Assembly (NCBI GenBank): GCA_013335175.1
Contig: JAAXWC010000004.1
Span: forward strand, 1 to 40,998
Reading direction: 5' to 3'
DNA length: 40,998 nucleotides
DNA from: Candidatus Roizmanbacteria bacterium
GTDB lineage: Bacteria; Patescibacteriota; Microgenomatia; UBA1406; GWC2-37-13
The notes under the pieces were generated by a model, which was not told the origin of the DNA, did no database searches, and saw only the letters and a program-made list of their open reading frames with translations. Of this stretch, positions 9,859 to 36,288 are shown piece by piece. Made by a program: the position numbers and the translations under genes. The number at the start of each line of letters is the position of its first letter. Position 1 is the first letter of the stretch.

Positions 9859-11817
9859 TTAGTTTGCTTTGATGCTCAATTTATAGAGCGTCATGGTGCC
9901 TCCGTAGTTTACTATCGTCCCGTTTGCCTTCACCCAGGAATTCACCGAATTATTTTCCATCGGGCCTCCGCGGCCACGACTGTCCGAATCAAGATAATAC
10001 TGCAACTGACCACTCGCAACCAACTTTTTTAATGAATCCACTGTCAGGGCATTGTCACTTCCATTAAATCCACCTACCGCCATAACCGGTGCACCGCCGG
10101 AAATCTGAATCGGGGCAGATTCATTTGCGGAAGCTACCGCAACAATCCACTTTGCAGTCCCTCGATGAGCAAGTAAATAGGAAACCAACGTTTTATCTGC
10201 ACTGGCGGATTCGTTATTTGTTCGCGAAACCGCTGTAGCACCCGGACCAGAGGTGGGAATACTCCCGGTATGGGCCGTTGTTATCGTAGAAAAGGTAAAC
10301 GCAAAAGGGCTCGCCAAACATACGCACAAAGCAAGGCATAAACTCAATCGTTGCCCCATTTGATTCTGTATCAATCGAAAAATAATAAGCAGACCACTTG
10401 CAAGAATACCACCCCAGAGAACTGCTGGAGTAAGCAATGGCCAGTAATTTCCGTAGTTTAATAAAACTACGCTTGTTCCGGTCGTGCTCAAAACCAAAGC
10501 TGGAAGTATCCACCAAAAATTTTCACTTTTATTATAGAGTTTTAATATTTCAGGAAGACCAAGTCCAACCAACGCAGCAATCGCAGGTGCCAACACAACT
10601 ACATAGTACGGATGAATAACACCACTCATTATGCTAAAAATACCGATGTGAAGTGCGAGCCACCCGAACCAAAATAGGGTAGCAGTTCGCTGCAAACTCA
10701 TTCGAGGTGCATAAAATATTTTTCCGATAAGAACCATAAAACATAGTGCTGCTGCGGGAAGAAACCAGCCAATATTGGGGCCGAAATCCGAGTTAAATAT
10801 ACGCAAAGCACCTGTTTTTCCACCAAAACCTGTTCCACCAGGTCCAGAGCCTCCTCCAGGGCCACCACCACCATATCCTCTGCCCGGCGGACCACCAGGC
10901 CCTCCAAAACCGCCCTCCATCTGACCAATCGGTGGGGGAGTATGATAGCCATCTTGCAGGGGAGGTTGCCCGATACCATGAGCAGGTCCGCCTTTCCCCG
11001 TTGCTCCATTTCCTAAAATTCGACTTAACCCATTGTATCCCGTAATTAAATCCCACACCGAGTTACTCGAGCTACTTCCGATGTAAGGACGTGCCTGAAC
11101 CGGCGTAACTGACACAGCCACCGTCCACCAAAGCGTGGCAACAATGGTAATGATACCGACGACAAACAGCTGATATATCCGTTTGTACCATGGGACCGGT
11201 GCAAAGATCAGATACAACAGAACCATAACCGGCAGCAATATCAACCCCTGCAACATTTTCGTATTAAAAGCGCAACCAGTGAAGATGGCAGTTAGAGAGA
11301 GCCACAAAACGGGCTTTTTTGAATCAAACGCCCGCAAAAATGTATACGCGCTCGCGGTTAAAAACATCGTTAAAAATCCGTCTGGATTATTAAATCGGAA
11401 CATAAGAGCGGCGACAGGGGAGAGAAGCATAATAATTCCTGCAAGAGCCGCACTCTGAAACTGAGCAATTCTTCTGACAGTTGCATACACTAAACCAACG
11501 GTAATTACTCCTGACAGTGCATTCGGAGCAAGCATGCTCCAACTTGAAAAACCAAAAATACGCGCACTCAGTGCCATGATCCAGATGGCCATCGGTGGTT
11601 TATCGACCGTTATAAAATTTGAGCCATCAAGACTCCCAAAGAAAAATGCTTTCCAAGAAGTACTCGCTGCCTGAACAGCGGCGGCATAATAACTATTGGC
11701 ATATCCATTATGGGAGAGATCAAAGAAATATACTCCGGTTGCCGTGAGCATTAAGAGTATAAAAAATAGTTTTTCCCATCGCTGTGTTCCTTCGAAAATC
11801 GATTTTATCAATTTCAT
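9859..11817 (-). CDS. GT39/PMT-type membrane glycosyltransferase with Gly-rich loop
   Basis: About 652 aa from the Met at 11817 (MKLIKSIFEG); the frame is open to 11838. It is a polytopic GT-C protein of the PMT_2/ArnT-like superfamily: NGYANSYYAAAVQAASTSWK with early extracytoplasmic acidic motifs, VDKPPMAIW, then FRFNNPDGFLTMF. A Gly/Pro-rich loop at about residues 290-345 is typical of the YkcA/YkcB-like subgroup. It ends in a soluble domain (VSYLLAHRGTAKWIVAVASA). It would transfer a sugar from a polyprenyl-phosphate donor to an envelope acceptor. A TTAA-type response-regulator motif lies just upstream. The terminator of the DUF5666 operon separates it from the exporter genes, so it seems to be a separate unit under the same regulator. 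Confidence 0.85.
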   Translation of the reverse strand: MKLIKSIFEGTQRWEKLFFILLMLTATGVYFFDLSHNGYANSYYAAAVQAASTSWKAFFFGSLDGSNFITVDKPPMAIWIMALSARIFGFSSWSMLAPNALSGVITVGLVYATVRRIAQFQSAALAGIIMLLSPVAALMFRFNNPDGFLTMFLTASAYTFLRAFDSKKPVLWLSLTAIFTGCAFNTKMLQGLILLPVMVLLYLIFAPVPWYKRIYQLFVVGIITIVATLWWTVAVSVTPVQARPYIGSSSSNSVWDLITGYNGLSRILGNGATGKGGPAHGIGQPPLQDGYHTPPPIGQMEGGFGGPGGPPGRGYGGGGPGGGSGPGGTGFGGKTGALRIFNSDFGPNIGWFLPAAALCFMVLIGKIFYAPRMSLQRTATLFWFGWLALHIGIFSIMSGVIHPYYVVVLAPAIAALVGLGLPEILKLYNKSENFWWILPALVLSTTGTSVVLLNYGNYWPLLTPAVLWGGILASGLLIIFRLIQNQMGQRLSLCLALCVCLASPFAFTFSTITTAHTGSIPTSGPGATAVSRTNNESASADKTLVSYLLAHRGTAKWIVAVASANESAPIQISGGAPVMAVGGFNGSDNALTVDSLKKLVASGQLQYYLDSDSRGRGGPMENNSVNSWVKANGTIVNYGGTMTLYKLSIKAN

Positions 11818-11840
11818 ATGCCCCATGGTACAAAACAAAC

Positions 11841-24526: not shown

Positions 24527-26056
24527 CTATTTTAACCTTCCATAATGCAGATACAACCCTTCGTCGAGCGCTACTGTATTCTTTTCATACCAATCCCATA
24601 AGTCAGGGACAAACATATCATCTTCTCGAGCGCGAATTTCAGTATTAAACGGATGAATAAATCGCGCATCATCCGTTGCCAATTGTTCATCCAGTACCTG
24701 AATATTACCCAAAAGGAGATAGGTTGGTTTCTGTTTGAGTATATACGGACCGTCATGCTTTTCATGCCCTGCCCATCCGTTGCCTAATGACATATTCTTT
24801 TTTGCAATATGCGCATTGGTAAGGCCCATCATGTCCCACACATACAAATCACTATAATAGCCAACCGCACCAATGGGAACGGCAGCCAGCGAATCCGTCG
24901 GTTTCGCATGGAACTGTAACCATTTACCGACCGCTGTCCAGCGTGGGATTTCATAGGTGCTTTGATAAAAATAATACTGATACTGCGTGTCTTGTGCCGG
25001 GATCATAGATCTTCCCACGATAAAAAGTCCGATACAGATAGATAAAATAAATGTAGTTCGCGTCCTTGTTTGCCAGACATAATCTGCAGTAATGACCAGC
25101 ATCCATGCAAGGTAGGGGAGCATTGGCAGTAAAAATCGGTACATCGGCAAACCATCTCCGCCAACAAAAATCGTACCTCCTACCACCCCTAAAATCATGA
25201 GTAAAGCTAAATACGAGCGACGACGAGATACATACGCAGCAATACCGCAGCATACGGCGAGAGATCCGTACCCATAGCTCCAAAAATATTGGAAGACATA
25301 GTCTATTCCTCTCAGATAAAGGTAAAACGTAGCCCCTACCTTTGCATAGTAGGTATTCGGAACCCAATCATGGAATATGTTCCACCGAACGACTATACCA
25401 AGCAAGAACAATGCAAAAAATGGCAAAGCGTACCAAAATAATGGCCAAAAAGATTTTCTTTTCAACACGGTAAAACATTGGCTTCCTAAATAAAATGCAA
25501 CAAAAATAACGCCTTCACTTCGCGCTAAAACGAGAATAAATGACAGAAAGGCAAAACCAACATATCTCTTTTTTGTCCATATGCCAGTTCCATTTTCATA
25601 CCAACAGAAAAAGAAGGTGAATAATAGAAATGAGTACAATGGTTCTTCTAACCCTCCCAAAGACCATACCGCGCGCACCGCATTTAGACACAAAAAAAGA
25701 AATCCAAAAAGTTTTGCAATAAAAGGGAATCCTTGCTTTGATACAAAAACATAAAATAAAAGAATCTCTGCAAGAGAGAAGAGAAGGCCAAGTGCACGCC
25801 CTGCAAAAACAAGATCAAAGTGAAAATATCCAAATCCAGACAACAACAAAAACCAAAGCGGAGAACTAAATCCTTCTATGAGTTCTCCCTTGTTATACAC
25901 CGGCCCCCATCCAGCTAAAAAGTGTTTCACATACCGAAATGTAATAAAGGCATCATCACTTAAAAAATGAAAATTGAATGAAAGAAACACAAAAAATAAA
26001 ATACCGCAAAGTACGAACAGCCATTCTTCTAATGCTATTTCTCTCAGTTGTTTCAT
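24527..26056 (-). CDS. GT-C membrane glycosyltransferase, arabinofuranosyltransferase-like
   Basis: 509 aa with about ten membrane helices. The first loop carries FLSDDAFITFRYVKHFLAG and then NKGELIEGFSSPLWF, the pattern of AftB-type and related polyprenyl-dependent glycosyltransferases; the DD pair (about 34-35) is the expected catalytic site. A C-terminal extracytoplasmic part follows (MMGLTNAHIAKK). The donor and acceptor are unknown. It starts 1 nt after the stop of a SipW-type peptidase gene, so it belongs to the TasA/SipW-like operon and may glycosylate the exported proteins or a cell-wall polymer; that link is inference. Confidence 0.75.
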   Translation of the reverse strand: MKQLREIALEEWLFVLCGILFFVFLSFNFHFLSDDAFITFRYVKHFLAGWGPVYNKGELIEGFSSPLWFLLLSGFGYFHFDLVFAGRALGLLFSLAEILLFYVFVSKQGFPFIAKLFGFLFLCLNAVRAVWSLGGLEEPLYSFLLFTFFFCWYENGTGIWTKKRYVGFAFLSFILVLARSEGVIFVAFYLGSQCFTVLKRKSFWPLFWYALPFFALFLLGIVVRWNIFHDWVPNTYYAKVGATFYLYLRGIDYVFQYFWSYGYGSLAVCCGIAAYVSRRRSYLALLMILGVVGGTIFVGGDGLPMYRFLLPMLPYLAWMLVITADYVWQTRTRTTFILSICIGLFIVGRSMIPAQDTQYQYYFYQSTYEIPRWTAVGKWLQFHAKPTDSLAAVPIGAVGYYSDLYVWDMMGLTNAHIAKKNMSLGNGWAGHEKHDGPYILKQKPTYLLLGNIQVLDEQLATDDARFIHPFNTEIRAREDDMFVPDLWDWYEKNTVALDEGLYLHYGRLK

Positions 26057-26057
26057 G

Positions 26058-26570
26058 TTATGAACGAGGGCGCCGTACGAATCTGAGAATTTTCAGCACC
26101 TCAATCGTGATAATAATAAGAGCAGGAAGTAAAATAAACAAGAAATTTCCCGGAACGGTTTTTACAAAATTAGCCAAATACCCCAGATAGGGGATAATGA
26201 GAATTACCTTCCCAATTACCAAACGAGGACGTACTGGATCGTCGGCAACCGCATTGGCATCTCCTTTGGTAACGTAAGTATTCCCGCCAATCTGGACAAT
26301 TCTATGGGTAATAATCTCCATTTTATTATCTATCTCTGCATAAAAGGAAATAATATCGCCCACAGAATAGGACGATTCTTGTTTTACTGCAATGAGCATT
26401 CCCTCGGAAAGAGTCGGAGTCATTGAAGTAGATTTATTCGTAAAAATTCGGACAGGAAAACCTAAAATATTTGTAGCTAATAAAAAAATTAACCCGGTAT
26501 AACACAGGTAGATCAAAACACAGGCATAGTACTTTCGCGATTCTGCCAAACGGAACAATCGTTTTATCAT
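26058..26570 (-). CDS. SipW-type signal peptidase I (second copy)
   Basis: 170 aa. ER/SipW-type S26 peptidase: Ser in NKSTSMTPTL (S49) and a His (EIITHRI, H89) in place of the Lys of bacterial Lep, then TKGDANAVADDPV. Membrane helices lie at both ends (about 17-35 and 138-162). SipW-type enzymes process TasA/camelysin-like secreted proteins. It lies 37 bp after the TasA-like gene at 26608-27186 and 1 bp before the GT-C gene. It is about 30-35% similar by eye to the other peptidase in the cluster, so it is not a recent duplicate. Confidence 0.88.
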   Translation of the reverse strand: MIKRLFRLAESRKYYACVLIYLCYTGLIFLLATNILGFPVRIFTNKSTSMTPTLSEGMLIAVKQESSYSVGDIISFYAEIDNKMEIITHRIVQIGGNTYVTKGDANAVADDPVRPRLVIGKVILIIPYLGYLANFVKTVPGNFLFILLPALIIITIEVLKILRFVRRPRS

Positions 26571-26607
26571 AGCTTTATCATACCTGATTTCATACTAATT
26601 CTCACGG

Positions 26608-27186
26608 TTACCATGTACCCGCAATAATGGTATTACTCAAAACCCGCTTGGCATAGAAACCTTTTTCACTCGCAGGATCATCTCGATAGGTTTTAATAAT
26701 GAAATTAAAATCACACTGTTTTTGTTTCAACGACGCTGTTTGATCATCAAATTGCAGAACAAAAACCCAATCTTCTACGCCACTTTTTGGGATAGTAGAA
26801 TCAATGGACAAATCAGCTAATTTTCCTGCGTATTTTACCTGCCAATTTTGCAAAACCTGTACATGAAGGGAGGCACATAAAACTGCTTGAGAAGAGGTAA
26901 CAGCAGTGGAAATTCTGTACTTAAAATCGAGCTTTCCCTCTTTTTTAATTCGAATTGGCCGAATATCATACCCCCCCGGGATAAAACCATTGATAACAAA
27001 TAGTTGTGAAAGGGAAGTGTTCGTCGCTGTATTTTTATCACCAAACGAGAGAGTGGTCGCGGTAAAGCGATTATTTGTTACAACCCGGTCGGCAAATAAG
27101 TCTGCATCCGTCCGCTCGGAATTCATCAAAAACCAACTAATCGCCATTACCAGTATAAGAATCGTTTTGATTCTAAGACCGAGCAT
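26608..27186 (-). CDS. secreted TasA/camelysin-like protein (second candidate substrate)
   Basis: 192 aa with an N-terminal hydrophobic helix (IKTILILVMAISWFLM) and then DLFADRVVTNNRFTATTLSF, close to the A-FSDT--NTFTAGTLDL motif that follows the signal peptide in TasA/CalY proteins. The rest is beta-strand-rich with a few Cys (C123 region and CDFNF). Overlaps the upstream SipW-type gene by 14 nt, so translation is coupled. It is a likely substrate of one of the two adjacent peptidases and may be a minor or adaptor subunit. Function is inferred from context and the short motif. Confidence 0.6.
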   Translation of the reverse strand: MLGLRIKTILILVMAISWFLMNSERTDADLFADRVVTNNRFTATTLSFGDKNTATNTSLSQLFVINGFIPGGYDIRPIRIKKEGKLDFKYRISTAVTSSQAVLCASLHVQVLQNWQVKYAGKLADLSIDSTIPKSGVEDWVFVLQFDDQTASLKQKQCDFNFIIKTYRDDPASEKGFYAKRVLSNTIIAGTW

Positions 27187-27673
27187 GTTTGAATAAGCTT
27201 ATTACTTCACTCAAAATAAGAATAAGAGCGGGCACAACGATAAAAATTACCACTCCCATTGGCGATCGTGCATAACTCACAAAATAGCCAAGCTTTGGTG
27301 CAACAAACTGAACTTTTCCCAAAATAGAATCCTGTGTAATCGTGTTTGCATCTTCAACTGCGTTGGCATCTCCTTTTGTAGTAAAAACCTGCGGTGTCTT
27401 ACTCAGATCAGCCTTTAATATTCTATGTGTTACTATTCTTCCTTCCTCATTTTTAAAGGTAACGACATCATTTTTCATGTATTGAGATTGTGATTGAATA
27501 AGAACAATGTCGCCCGTCATAATCGTTGGTTCCATGGAACCAGATTGCACAACAAACGATCGATATCCGCCAAGTACGCCTTGGTTTGAAGCAACAGTGA
27601 AAATAATAACGAGTCCAAAAGCTCCGAGCAAAAGGTAAGAAATAAGATTAAAAATAAATTTTAGTGTTTTCAT
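27173..27673 (-). CDS. sipW: SipW-type signal peptidase I (first copy)
   Basis: 166 aa from the ATG at 27673 (MKTLKFIFNL); the longer frame to 27733 runs through the intergenic hairpin. The catalytic Ser lies in QSGSMEPT (S46) and the His in RIVTHRI (H83); TTKGDANAVEDANTI is the conserved box E region. Membrane helices lie at both ends. The His in place of Lys marks the ER/SipW type. It lies downstream of the TasA-like gene and separated from it by a hairpin, as in pilin-type operons where the substrate is made in excess. Confidence 0.9.
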   Translation of the reverse strand: MKTLKFIFNLISYLLLGAFGLVIIFTVASNQGVLGGYRSFVVQSGSMEPTIMTGDIVLIQSQSQYMKNDVVTFKNEEGRIVTHRILKADLSKTPQVFTTKGDANAVEDANTITQDSILGKVQFVAPKLGYFVSYARSPMGVVIFIVVPALILILSEVISLFKHARS

Positions 27674-27705
27674 AGTATGGTGTATCTCGTAATGAGAATG
27701 CCAAA

Positions 27706-27733
27706 ATGGGAGGCGCGTTTCCGAGCCTCCCAT
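27706..27733 (-). terminator. intercistronic hairpin after TasA-like gene
   Basis: ATGGGAGGC (27706-27714) and GCCTCCCAT (27725-27733) form a perfect 9-bp stem with a 10-nt loop; on the minus strand TTTT follows after the stem. It lies between the TasA-like gene and sipW and is likely a partial terminator or a 3' stabiliser of the tasA-like message. Confidence 0.65.
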
Positions 27734-27755
27734 GTATGCGCATTAGAAACGAATC

Positions 27756-28385
27756 TTAGTTCGTTGGTGTTGGTCCGTTGATGAGTTGGATAAGGCGGAA
27801 GTCCATGTCGAAGCTTGTGCTATCTCCTTGGATCTCGTTGCCGTATTTGTCCTCAGCCGTTGCCCAGTTTACCCCTACGGTTCGTTCTTCCCCTGGTTGG
27901 AGAACGATTGGAGTGAGTTCATTCCAATCAGTTCCGACCTTGGCTACCTGATCTGTTGCCAATGTGGAGGACACTTTGTTCTGTCCTTCATACGACACAT
28001 TGAGCGTGATCACTTTTCCAAGATCCCCATCGGTCTTTGTTTCACAATCAGGAACAGCTGCCCGTTTCTGATCATTGATACATCCTGCCTCATGGTTTAC
28101 TAGATTTTTCAATCTCACCAGAAGTCTACCGGGAAGTGAACCTGTGTTCTTTACTTTCCAGTCTTTGCTTCCTCCGATGTTTCCATTTTGGCCAATGTTC
28201 TCAAGGACAAAGGGTTGAATTGATTCCCCGTTTGAGTTCACACTCAAATCAAGTGTTCCCACTTTGATTTGATTTTGAGTCGTTGTTCTGATTGCGGTAA
28301 AGTAAGCATATGTTCCGCCAATGGCGAACATAGCCGTAAAACCTATCAAAACAAGACTCAAGATGAGTTTTTTGTTCTTGGGCAT
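27756..28385 (-). CDS. TasA/camelysin-like secreted structural protein
   Basis: 209 aa from the ATG at 28385 (MPKNKKLILS). The signal peptide is of the SipW-dependent type: hydrophobic core LVLIGFTAMFAIGGTYAYFT, with cleavage expected in the GTYA-YFT region. The mature protein then reads QNQIKVGTLDLSVNS, the start of the TasA/CalY beta-sandwich, and is Asn/Gly/Asp/Thr-rich. Homologues form amyloid-like or donor-strand fibres on the cell surface. No metalloprotease motif (HExxH) is seen, so the M73 camelysin peptidase name would not apply. It heads the cluster, has a strong promoter and is followed by a hairpin and the peptidase gene. Confidence 0.8.
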   Translation of the reverse strand: MPKNKKLILSLVLIGFTAMFAIGGTYAYFTAIRTTTQNQIKVGTLDLSVNSNGESIQPFVLENIGQNGNIGGSKDWKVKNTGSLPGRLLVRLKNLVNHEAGCINDQKRAAVPDCETKTDGDLGKVITLNVSYEGQNKVSSTLATDQVAKVGTDWNELTPIVLQPGEERTVGVNWATAEDKYGNEIQGDSTSFDMDFRLIQLINGPTPTN

Positions 28386-28413
28386 AGATCTGTTTAATTT
28401 ATAACAAGTTTTC

Positions 28414-28443
28414 AGTATATGCATTGAGTAAGTAAATTGTCAA
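28414..28443 (-). promoter_or_regulatory. strong promoter of the TasA-like gene
   Basis: On the minus strand TTGACA (28438-28443), an 18-bp spacer and TATACT (28414-28419). The -35 is a perfect consensus. A ~22-nt untranslated leader without Shine-Dalgarno precedes the ATG at 28385. Confidence 0.75.
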
Positions 28444-28795: not shown

Positions 28796-29425
28796 TTAAA
28801 TCCAGAGGAGTGAAAGCAATGCCATAGATATCCCGAGCAACGTTCCACCTACAACATCGGTTGTCCAGTGTTCTCCTAAACTAACTCGAGATAATAGCAT
28901 GAGAAAAACAATACTTAGTATTCCGCAGTAGAATAGAAAACGAAGTGGAGTATCAAGACGCTTTATTTTTGTTATTAAAAAGGCAATAATGATACCTAAA
29001 AACACAATCCGCAGACTATGCCCCGAAGGATACGAAGACCCCGGTTGGACATACGAGGAGGGGAATTCAAAAGGCAAATCGGTCCGCAACAATAAATGTG
29101 GTGGCCCCGGATGATGTAAAAATCCCTTACCGATAAACTCAATCGCATGCGCTGCAATAAAGGTACCAAGCGCAACAAAGAAACCAAACCATTTTTTTCG
29201 AAGTACCAGTAACACAAACAAAACTACTACGAGCACTTCAAAACTGCCTGCAAGACTGAGGAACGAAAAAAAGGGATCAAATTTATGCGGAATGTGGTCC
29301 TGTAAACGAACCGTTGTATCAAAATCGAGTTTATCAAAGAGGTGCTTTTTTACGAGGAGAGTAAATCCTATAAAACTCAAAAATGACACTATTGAACCAA
29401 TAAAAAAATAAACATTCCTTCGCAT
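28796..29425 (-). CDS. PAP2 family phosphatase
   Basis: 209 aa, about six membrane helices. The three PAP2 motifs are KGFLHHPGP (variant of KxxxxxxRP, with His in the Arg position), SSYPSGHS, and SRVSLGEHWTTDVVGG with the catalytic His. Family members remove phosphate from lipid phosphates such as undecaprenyl pyrophosphate or phosphatidate. A TATAAT box lies 9 nt before the ATG on the minus strand. It is not coupled to a neighbour; the next gene on its 3' side is the TasA-like gene 410 bp away. Confidence 0.9.
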   Translation of the reverse strand: MRRNVYFFIGSIVSFLSFIGFTLLVKKHLFDKLDFDTTVRLQDHIPHKFDPFFSFLSLAGSFEVLVVVLFVLLVLRKKWFGFFVALGTFIAAHAIEFIGKGFLHHPGPPHLLLRTDLPFEFPSSYVQPGSSYPSGHSLRIVFLGIIIAFLITKIKRLDTPLRFLFYCGILSIVFLMLLSRVSLGEHWTTDVVGGTLLGISMALLSLLWI

Positions 29426-30005: not shown

Positions 30006-30037
30006 ACGTCATTCCCGCGCAGGCGGGAATCCATTAT
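30006..30037. repeat. short dispersed repeat hairpin
   Basis: GTCATTCCCGC and GCGGGAATCC are inverted around a short centre, right after the NUDIX stop. It is the same CGTCATTCCCG family seen at 30761-30792 and elsewhere, and may act as a 3' hairpin. Confidence 0.65.
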
Positions 30038-30642: not shown

Positions 30643-30792
30643 TACGTCATTCCGGTAAGTGAGTAAAACGAACGCATCCGGAATCGTTGTGAGACAATAG
30701 CATCGTCATCCTCTTGGACAGGGGCGACCAATAGACAAAACAAGAACCTCATTAGCTTTTTTCGTCATTCCCGCGAACGCGGGAATCCAGGG
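30643..30792. repeat. dispersed repeat cluster
   Basis: Three related pieces lie in tandem: CGTCATTCCGG (30644 on), GTCATCCTCTTGGACAGGGG then CGACCAATAGACAA (30704 on) and CGTCATTCCCGCG/CGCGGGAATCCAG (30762-30790). They resemble the ends of the element at 21670-21815 and 39450-39519. The gap up to 31143 otherwise holds only the methyltransferase relic and a promoter. Confidence 0.65.
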
Positions 30793-35634: not shown

Positions 35635-36288
35635 ATGCAAATGAAGAAATTATTACTCGGTGGGGGAGCGGTACTCGCCATAGGTATCTTTTTGGCTGTA
35701 ATCTATGCCGTCACAAACACCCCTGCCAAAACAACCTATCATCCCGAACTCAGTAAAATAACTGCTTCAGATCATATTTCTTGGTCTCCCGATAACAAAC
35801 AAATTCTGGTTGAGTACAGCGATTTCCAATGCCCCGCGTGTAAAATCGCACATGAATATTTAAAGTCTTTTGCCACTACAAAAGAAGGGCAACAGGTGCT
35901 AAAAAAAGTAACGTTTGTCTACCGATATTATCCCTTAACGCAAATTCATCAAAATGCTTTAGCATCTGCTTATGCCGCTGAAGCTGCAGGGAAACAACAA
36001 AAGTTCAACGAAATGGCAGATGTCCTCTTTACGAAGCAAGGGGAATGGGGAACAATCTCAGACGCACCGGCAAAATTTGTTGAATACGCAAAAAGTTTAG
36101 GCCTCAATACCGATCAATTTCAAAAAGACATGACATCGCAAGAGACAGTGGCACGAATAGCCGCAGATATCAAATCGGGAGATTCGGTGGGTATAGAAGC
36201 CACCCCCACATTCTATTTGAACGGTAAAAAACTGGAATTAAACTCACCCGACGATCTAAAACAATCCTTGCTTGAGGTGAGTAAATAA
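35635..36288 (+). CDS. membrane-anchored DsbA-like thiol oxidoreductase
   Basis: 217 aa. An N-terminal membrane helix (residues 5-26, LLLGGGAVLAIGIFLAVIYA) is followed by a thioredoxin fold with active site FQCPACK (C66, C69) and the cis-Pro loop EATPTFYLNG (about 190-199), the layout of DsbA/Thioredoxin_4 family proteins such as BdbD. It would form disulfides in exported proteins. It has the first start of the downstream set; a TATGAT box lies 7 nt upstream. Substrates could be the Cys-containing exported proteins here. Confidence 0.92.
   Translation: MQMKKLLLGGGAVLAIGIFLAVIYAVTNTPAKTTYHPELSKITASDHISWSPDNKQILVEYSDFQCPACKIAHEYLKSFATTKEGQQVLKKVTFVYRYYPLTQIHQNALASAYAAEAAGKQQKFNEMADVLFTKQGEWGTISDAPAKFVEYAKSLGLNTDQFQKDMTSQETVARIAADIKSGDSVGIEATPTFYLNGKKLELNSPDDLKQSLLEVSK

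Follow-up and report, generated by a model that had tools for sequence, protein, structure and literature searches.

The question raised by this locus is why a bacterium should carry two signal peptidases of the SipW type in one small cluster of putative fibre genes, and which neighbouring genes belong with them. The window studied here is a stretch of 40,998 nt from Candidatus Roizmanbacteria (contig JAAXWC010000004.1, positions 1 to 40,998; contig C2 of a source genome of 1.45 Mb, rated 100% complete). An original prediction, made from the letters of the window, had read positions 24,527 to 28,443 as a TasA/SipW-like secretion cluster with two TasA-like substrates, two peptidases each possibly serving one of them, and a GT-C glycosyltransferase. 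In this study, we find that the unit proper comprises four genes, TasA1, SipW1, TasA2 and SipW2, and propose, with a probability of about 0.58, that it is a surface-fibre cassette in which TasA1 is the main and TasA2 an accessory subunit, SipW2 acts mainly on TasA2, and an RNA hairpin sets the ratio of the subunits. The genes were confirmed where the original prediction had placed them, all on the minus strand, and the parts are as follows.

28414..28443, minus strand: sigma-70-like promoter TTGACA-18-TATACT upstream of TasA1, 11/12 consensus matches
27756..28385, minus strand: TasA1, TasA/camelysin-like major fibre subunit, 209 aa (PF12389, TIGR04088, Foldseek)
27706..27733, minus strand: RNA hairpin in the TasA1-SipW1 gap (minimum free energy and z-score; position kept across loci)
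27173..27673, minus strand: SipW1, SipW/archaeal-type signal peptidase, S46/H83, SGSM motif (TIGR02228; dyad invariant)
26608..27186, minus strand: TasA2, accessory TasA-superfamily subunit, 192 aa (conservation beside SipW1; pilin-like beta-sandwich model)
26058..26570, minus strand: SipW2, second SipW-type peptidase, S49/H89, remodelled STSM motif (TIGR02228; separate clade)
24527..26056, minus strand: GT-C-like glycosyltransferase with AftB-like N-terminus (AftB 9dlf match; outside the conserved cassette)

TasA1, SipW1 and TasA2 were collected together at 21 related Patescibacteria loci, the flanks of which are unrelated between genomes, and SipW2 stands next after TasA2 in 16 of the 21. 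Because the four genes are conserved in many genomes, they are not a product of chance, and random open reading frames, TasA2 included, were ruled out. Gene order is constant across the 21 loci except at L038, where TasA1 is inverted and lies downstream; a contig edge cuts TasA1 at L037, TasA1 is split and SipW1 short at L040, and at L026, a locus from a later search, a truncated SipW2 is missing the serine region. Most named relatives of the cassette belong to Candidatus Roizmanbacteria or other Patescibacteria; one each is labelled Levyibacteriota, Nealsonbacteria and Moranbacteria, and there is a distant Collierbacteria variant. Among 83 genomes of the order, TasA2 occurs in 16 and a strong TasA1 in 15, all of them within the 16, and the sixteenth has its TasA2 at a contig end. 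The original prediction implied that these genes should co-occur in related genomes, and they do: every genome with a strong TasA1 orthologue also has TasA2 (15/15; Fisher p ~1e-15, phylogeny uncorrected). These results identify a compact fibre kit patchily spread among Patescibacteria. Within genus g13 (L040, L026, L016, L023), related genomes have a split TasA1, or a SipW2 that is truncated or missing altogether, which suggests stepwise decay of the cassette, or else assembly errors. Other-type TasA-like loci were found instead of the free cassette at L031 and L081 (G036), L079 (G010), L080 (G081) and L082 (G085), and in the order genomes examined the two kinds were never seen in one genome.

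TasA1 passes both the TasA/camelysin model PF12389 of Pfam (25.7 bits, gathering cut-off 22.5) and TIGR04088, the model of the SipW-dependent-type signal peptide (29.4 bits, cut-off 19), which is also matched at E <= 0.01 by 8 of 9 TasA1 orthologues, and it scores 20 bits on the TasA equivalog NF046066, below the cut-off of 450. Judged by these profiles, TasA1 is a relative of the TasA family and not a Bacillus orthologue. The best match of its AlphaFold model in the PDB is the TasA fibre 8aur (Foldseek, E 5e-7, probability 1.00, TMq 0.54), and the second best is the donor-strand thread 7pnb of the archaeon Sulfolobus; a sequence search of solved structures gave no significant match for TasA1 or TasA2. 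Together with the SipW type of the peptidases, these matches support a fibre system of the TasA/SipW type.

Both peptidases pass TIGR02228, the model of SipW/archaeal-type signal peptidase I (SipW1 100.8 and SipW2 81.1 bits, cut-off 51.85), and both fall short of the general LepB model TIGR02227 (about 30 bits, cut-off 47), for which the source genome has a separate LepB at G000:C19 (172.8 bits). These results rule out that they are general LepB enzymes, in line with the SipW type assigned in the original prediction. On the Bacillus SipW equivalog NF046067 they score 113.9 and 72.7 bits, respectively, below its cut-off of 190. The catalytic pairs that had been read from the sequence, S46/H83 in SipW1 and S49/H89 in SipW2, are invariant in the orthologue alignments, so that the dyad is Ser-His and not Ser-Lys. 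In the SipW tree, the bootstrap values of which are short of full convergence, SipW2 forms a group of its own (bootstrap/Shimodaira-Hasegawa-like approximate likelihood ratio test 95/73) and SipW1 another (94/94). The glycine before the catalytic serine is present in all scorable SipW1 (20/20) and single SipW sequences (18/18) and in only 3 of 15 SipW2. SipW2 is thus a distinct clade that has lost this glycine, a feature new here. Since the residue before the nucleophile is variable and the branches are long, and since SipW2 is truncated in one genome and absent from others, it may be asked whether this paralogue is degenerating or has been repurposed, for example as a membrane factor in assembly or anchoring, and is without signal-peptidase activity. 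However, all seven SipW2 proteins in the alignment retain the GD motif and the Ser/His dyad, and in every SipW2-bearing genome tested SipW2 scores above the TIGR02228 cut-off, and we regard a loss of activity as quite improbable.

The second substrate was harder to place. The AlphaFold model of TasA2 is a beta-sandwich (predicted local distance difference test, pLDDT, 79) with the donor-strand pilins and adhesins FimA and FimH (lectin domain) as its nearest folds (template modelling, TM, score ~0.4), and TasA is missing from the top 50 fold matches. The TasA fold expected of both substrates was found in the model of TasA1, with 8aur as best match, and the model of TasA2 is instead a sandwich resembling donor-strand pilins. 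A link between the two was seen by hhalign, which aligned 92 columns of their N-terminal halves with a probability of 91% and the predicted cleavage regions in register. TasA2 has two invariant cysteines; the window also encodes a DsbA-like thioredoxin (35635-36288), which would fit with disulphides being formed in exported proteins such as TasA2.

Of 380 genomes sampled evenly across the phylum, another 15 carry a TasA2-like domain, always inside frames of 412 to 1356 residues. Most of these loci begin with one or more TasA-like genes, followed by SipW and then by a large protein with the TasA2 domain at its N-terminus; a further exported protein, its C-terminus hydrophobic, often comes next, in the position that SipW2 occupies in the cassette. 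Among the domains fused to that of TasA2, a lamin tail domain (LTD) was present in 6 of 7 large proteins scanned with Pfam, and 4 of the 7 pass PF12389 (L064 23.3, L066 36.0, L068 28.6 and L072 24.1 bits). Because its domain elsewhere is the N-terminus of large proteins encoded after SipW, free TasA2 looks like a detached module of such proteins, although the direction of change is inferred. Two further loci were noted. At L070 (8417-10483), a SipW peptidase and a TasA2-like domain share one frame of 688 residues, apparently a peptidase fused to its own substrate family. At L047 (5637-14900), from Collierbacteria, genes for TasA, SipW, a TasA2-like/lamin-tail-like protein, a membrane-anchored protein, a repeat protein of 1499 residues and a sortase-like protein stand consecutively.

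The predicted cleavage sites (at the arrow) are GGTYA↓YFTA in TasA1 and RTDA↓DLFA in TasA2. In free TasA2 the predicted site is T-x-A↓D-(L/I/M) in every sequence seen, and D stands at P1' in none of about 15 large proteins, which mostly have Y, F or W there. P2' of TasA1 is mostly aromatic, with leucine at two loci; in TasA of B. subtilis an aromatic P2' makes a poor LepB substrate (PMC10269814). Because the raw distance correlations between genes included near-duplicate loci, we used only a partial Mantel test on a thinned set of 12 loci with the distances of the other genes held constant, and obtained 0.52 for TasA2-SipW2 (p 0.014) and 0.38 for TasA1-SipW1 (p 0.04), while the cross pairs were not significant. 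Since SipW2 has lost the glycine and free TasA2 carries an A↓D site, TasA2 and SipW2 appear to have changed together, with modest support from co-evolution. A fuller history, in which SipW was duplicated or acquired and SipW2 and TasA2 changed together (from an aromatic-type site to A↓D, with the motif remodelled), is tentative, and we put it somewhat short of even odds; if true, it would give two specificity channels per fibre operon, and the accessory subunit could mature apart from the main fibre protein.

We thus propose the following course. After export, TasA1 would be cleaved by SipW1 so that the mature protein begins with an aromatic residue (A↓YF), and would then polymerise by donor-strand exchange into the main fibre. 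TasA2 would be a less abundant subunit of the TasA superfamily that starts, caps or anchors the fibre in a TapA-like role, and SipW2, a paralogue with a remodelled active-site motif, would mainly cut TasA2 at its changed site (A↓D-L/I/M). The hairpin behind TasA1 would set a high ratio of TasA1 to TasA2. TapA starts the polymerisation of TasA by supplying a donor strand from its own N-terminus, and the similarity of the N-terminal half of TasA2 to that of TasA1 would fit such an initiation. Of this picture, the gene order, the families, the fold match of TasA1, the SipW2 clade with its motif change, the change of predicted cleavage site and the conservation of the hairpin are computed results; fibre formation, the subunit ratio, the accessory role and the assignment of peptidases to substrates are inferred.

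Several observations weigh against this proposal. The cleavage sites are predicted from sequence, and the partial Mantel results on 12 loci would fail correction for six tests. The confidence of the TasA1 model is low to middling (pLDDT 67). TasA2 lies under the PF12389 cut-off (13.9 against 22.5 bits), with a weak match in only 1 of 10 members, and its fold match reaches TM 0.4 only. Moreover, five loci from at least three lineages hold TasA2 without an adjacent SipW2, and in four of their genomes, G034, G004, G012 and G089 (91-99% complete), only one SipW-type peptidase exceeds the cut-off and SipW2 is absent, so that SipW1 or LepB must suffice there. Given these five loci, a strict pairing of each peptidase with one substrate cannot be a requirement; the idea of one peptidase per subunit keeps modest support from the paired motif and site change and the partial Mantel test.

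That several lineages keep TasA2 without SipW2 would also be expected if TasA1 and TasA2 were co-major subunits of a mixed filament, like TasA and CalY of B. cereus, which copolymerises two camelysin-type subunits with one SipW (PMC13082335), and if SipW2 were a redundant copy that has no substrate of its own. However, TasA2 is less conserved than TasA1 (mean identity among orthologues 39% against 52%), fails PF12389, lies past the hairpin and has N-terminal modules of large proteins as its relatives, while the SipW2 motif and the TasA2 cleavage site are unlike those of all single-SipW systems seen, and a mixed filament with a spare peptidase seems to us rather unlikely.

As for the expression of the proposed fibre cassette, the promoter hexamers (TTGACA at 28443-28438 and TATACT at 28419-28414, with an 18 nt spacer) form the best of 17 promoter matches in the region, where shuffled sequence yields 11.8, and the consensus promoter noted before TasA1 is thus upheld. 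An ATG at 28424 falls between the two hexamers, and the start of TasA1 is therefore at 28385, as had been assumed; the start of SipW1 is best placed at 27673. TasA2 and SipW1 overlap by 14 nt (27173-27186), and the GT-C gene starts 1 nt past SipW2, both as first described. The gap with the hairpin (27733-27706) has a minimum free energy of -28.7 and a z-score of about -4.7, in a control that shuffled adjacent base pairs and is not an exact dinucleotide shuffle. Because the hairpin tail has only four T, the terminator scanner made no call of an intrinsic terminator. Of 19 cassette loci, 12 have a strong hairpin between TasA1 and SipW1 (z <= -3.3), and at four of the seven others the gap is shorter than 40 nt; an equivalent hairpin, unrelated in sequence, was found at 10 of 12 loci of the large-protein type. 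The hairpin after the first subunit is therefore strong and widely conserved in position, and its most likely effect is to raise TasA1 relative to the genes downstream, through protection of the 3' end or partial termination.

With regard to the GT-C enzyme, its 1-nt spacing means that it is probably co-transcribed with the cassette in the source genome, and its GT-C/AftB-like N-terminus (weak similarity to AftB 9dlf over the N-terminal 100 residues, E 9.4e-7) could suggest a fifth member that glycosylates the fibre. However, no homologue was found beside any other cassette in the flanks of the collected loci, and only one of the 82 other genomes of the order has one (G026), in which the cassette is absent and the neighbours are unrelated. 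The GT-C gene is thus a local neighbour and was rejected as a system member; its part in the fibre, as envisaged in the original prediction, is very improbable indeed, and glycosylation by it as a general feature of the cassette is already unlikely. The PAP2 phosphatase (28796-29425) and Obg were likewise rejected, neither being beside other cassettes. A second GT-C-type enzyme, a PMT_2/YkcB-like membrane mannosyltransferase at 9859-11838 of the window, is unlinked to the cassette, and palindromic elements CATTCCCGC-N6-GGGAATC lie at 30010-30031 and 30766-30787 (chance expectation 0.01 matches).

Patescibacteria are mostly uncultured, and the cultivated members live on other microbes. In the open-access literature, we came across no account of TasA/SipW systems from this phylum. 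With its paired change in peptidase motif and substrate site, the cassette lends itself to a direct test of signal-peptidase specificity, and the link between TasA2 and the large lamin-tail proteins suggests a general coupling of large surface proteins to TasA fibres.

Among known systems, the archaeal filaments are alike in fold: the Sulfolobus threads (7pnb), the second-best fold match of TasA1, and the bundling pili of Pyrobaculum, a second-hand comparison drawn from PMC10151520 and PMC9674648, are donor-strand beta-sandwich filaments, although the search of solved structures gave no significant sequence relation to TasA1. With tapA-sipW-tasA of B. subtilis the cassette shares the clustering of a TasA-type major subunit, a SipW-type peptidase and an accessory subunit, as well as the overlap of peptidase and accessory-subunit genes, which there is between tapA and sipW (PMC10151520). 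It differs in its order (major-peptidase-accessory-peptidase), in having two peptidases, and in its accessory TasA2, which has a predicted A↓D site and a pair of invariant cysteines, has domains of large lamin-tail proteins as homologues, and is likened to TapA by role, not homology; the departure from the classical three-gene set that had been noted is therefore real. The B. cereus region sipW-tasA/capP (bc1280)/calY likewise combines TasA-camelysin-type substrates with SipW, and its substrates, two of them camelysin-type and one a chaperone-like accessory protein, serve sortase-independent filaments (PMC13082335); a single SipW processes all three proteins and a second peptidase is not described there (PMC13082335), whereas the cassette has two peptidases. 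Other Patescibacteria loci collected in this study (e.g. L064, L065, L072, L047) present, in identical order, a TasA-like gene, a hairpin, SipW and a TasA2 domain, and SipW adjoins or overlaps the gene with that domain; however, theirs is a single SipW with the SGSM motif, their TasA2 domain continues into large C-terminal parts and its site never has D at P1', and an exported protein with a hydrophobic C-terminus often stands in the place of SipW2.

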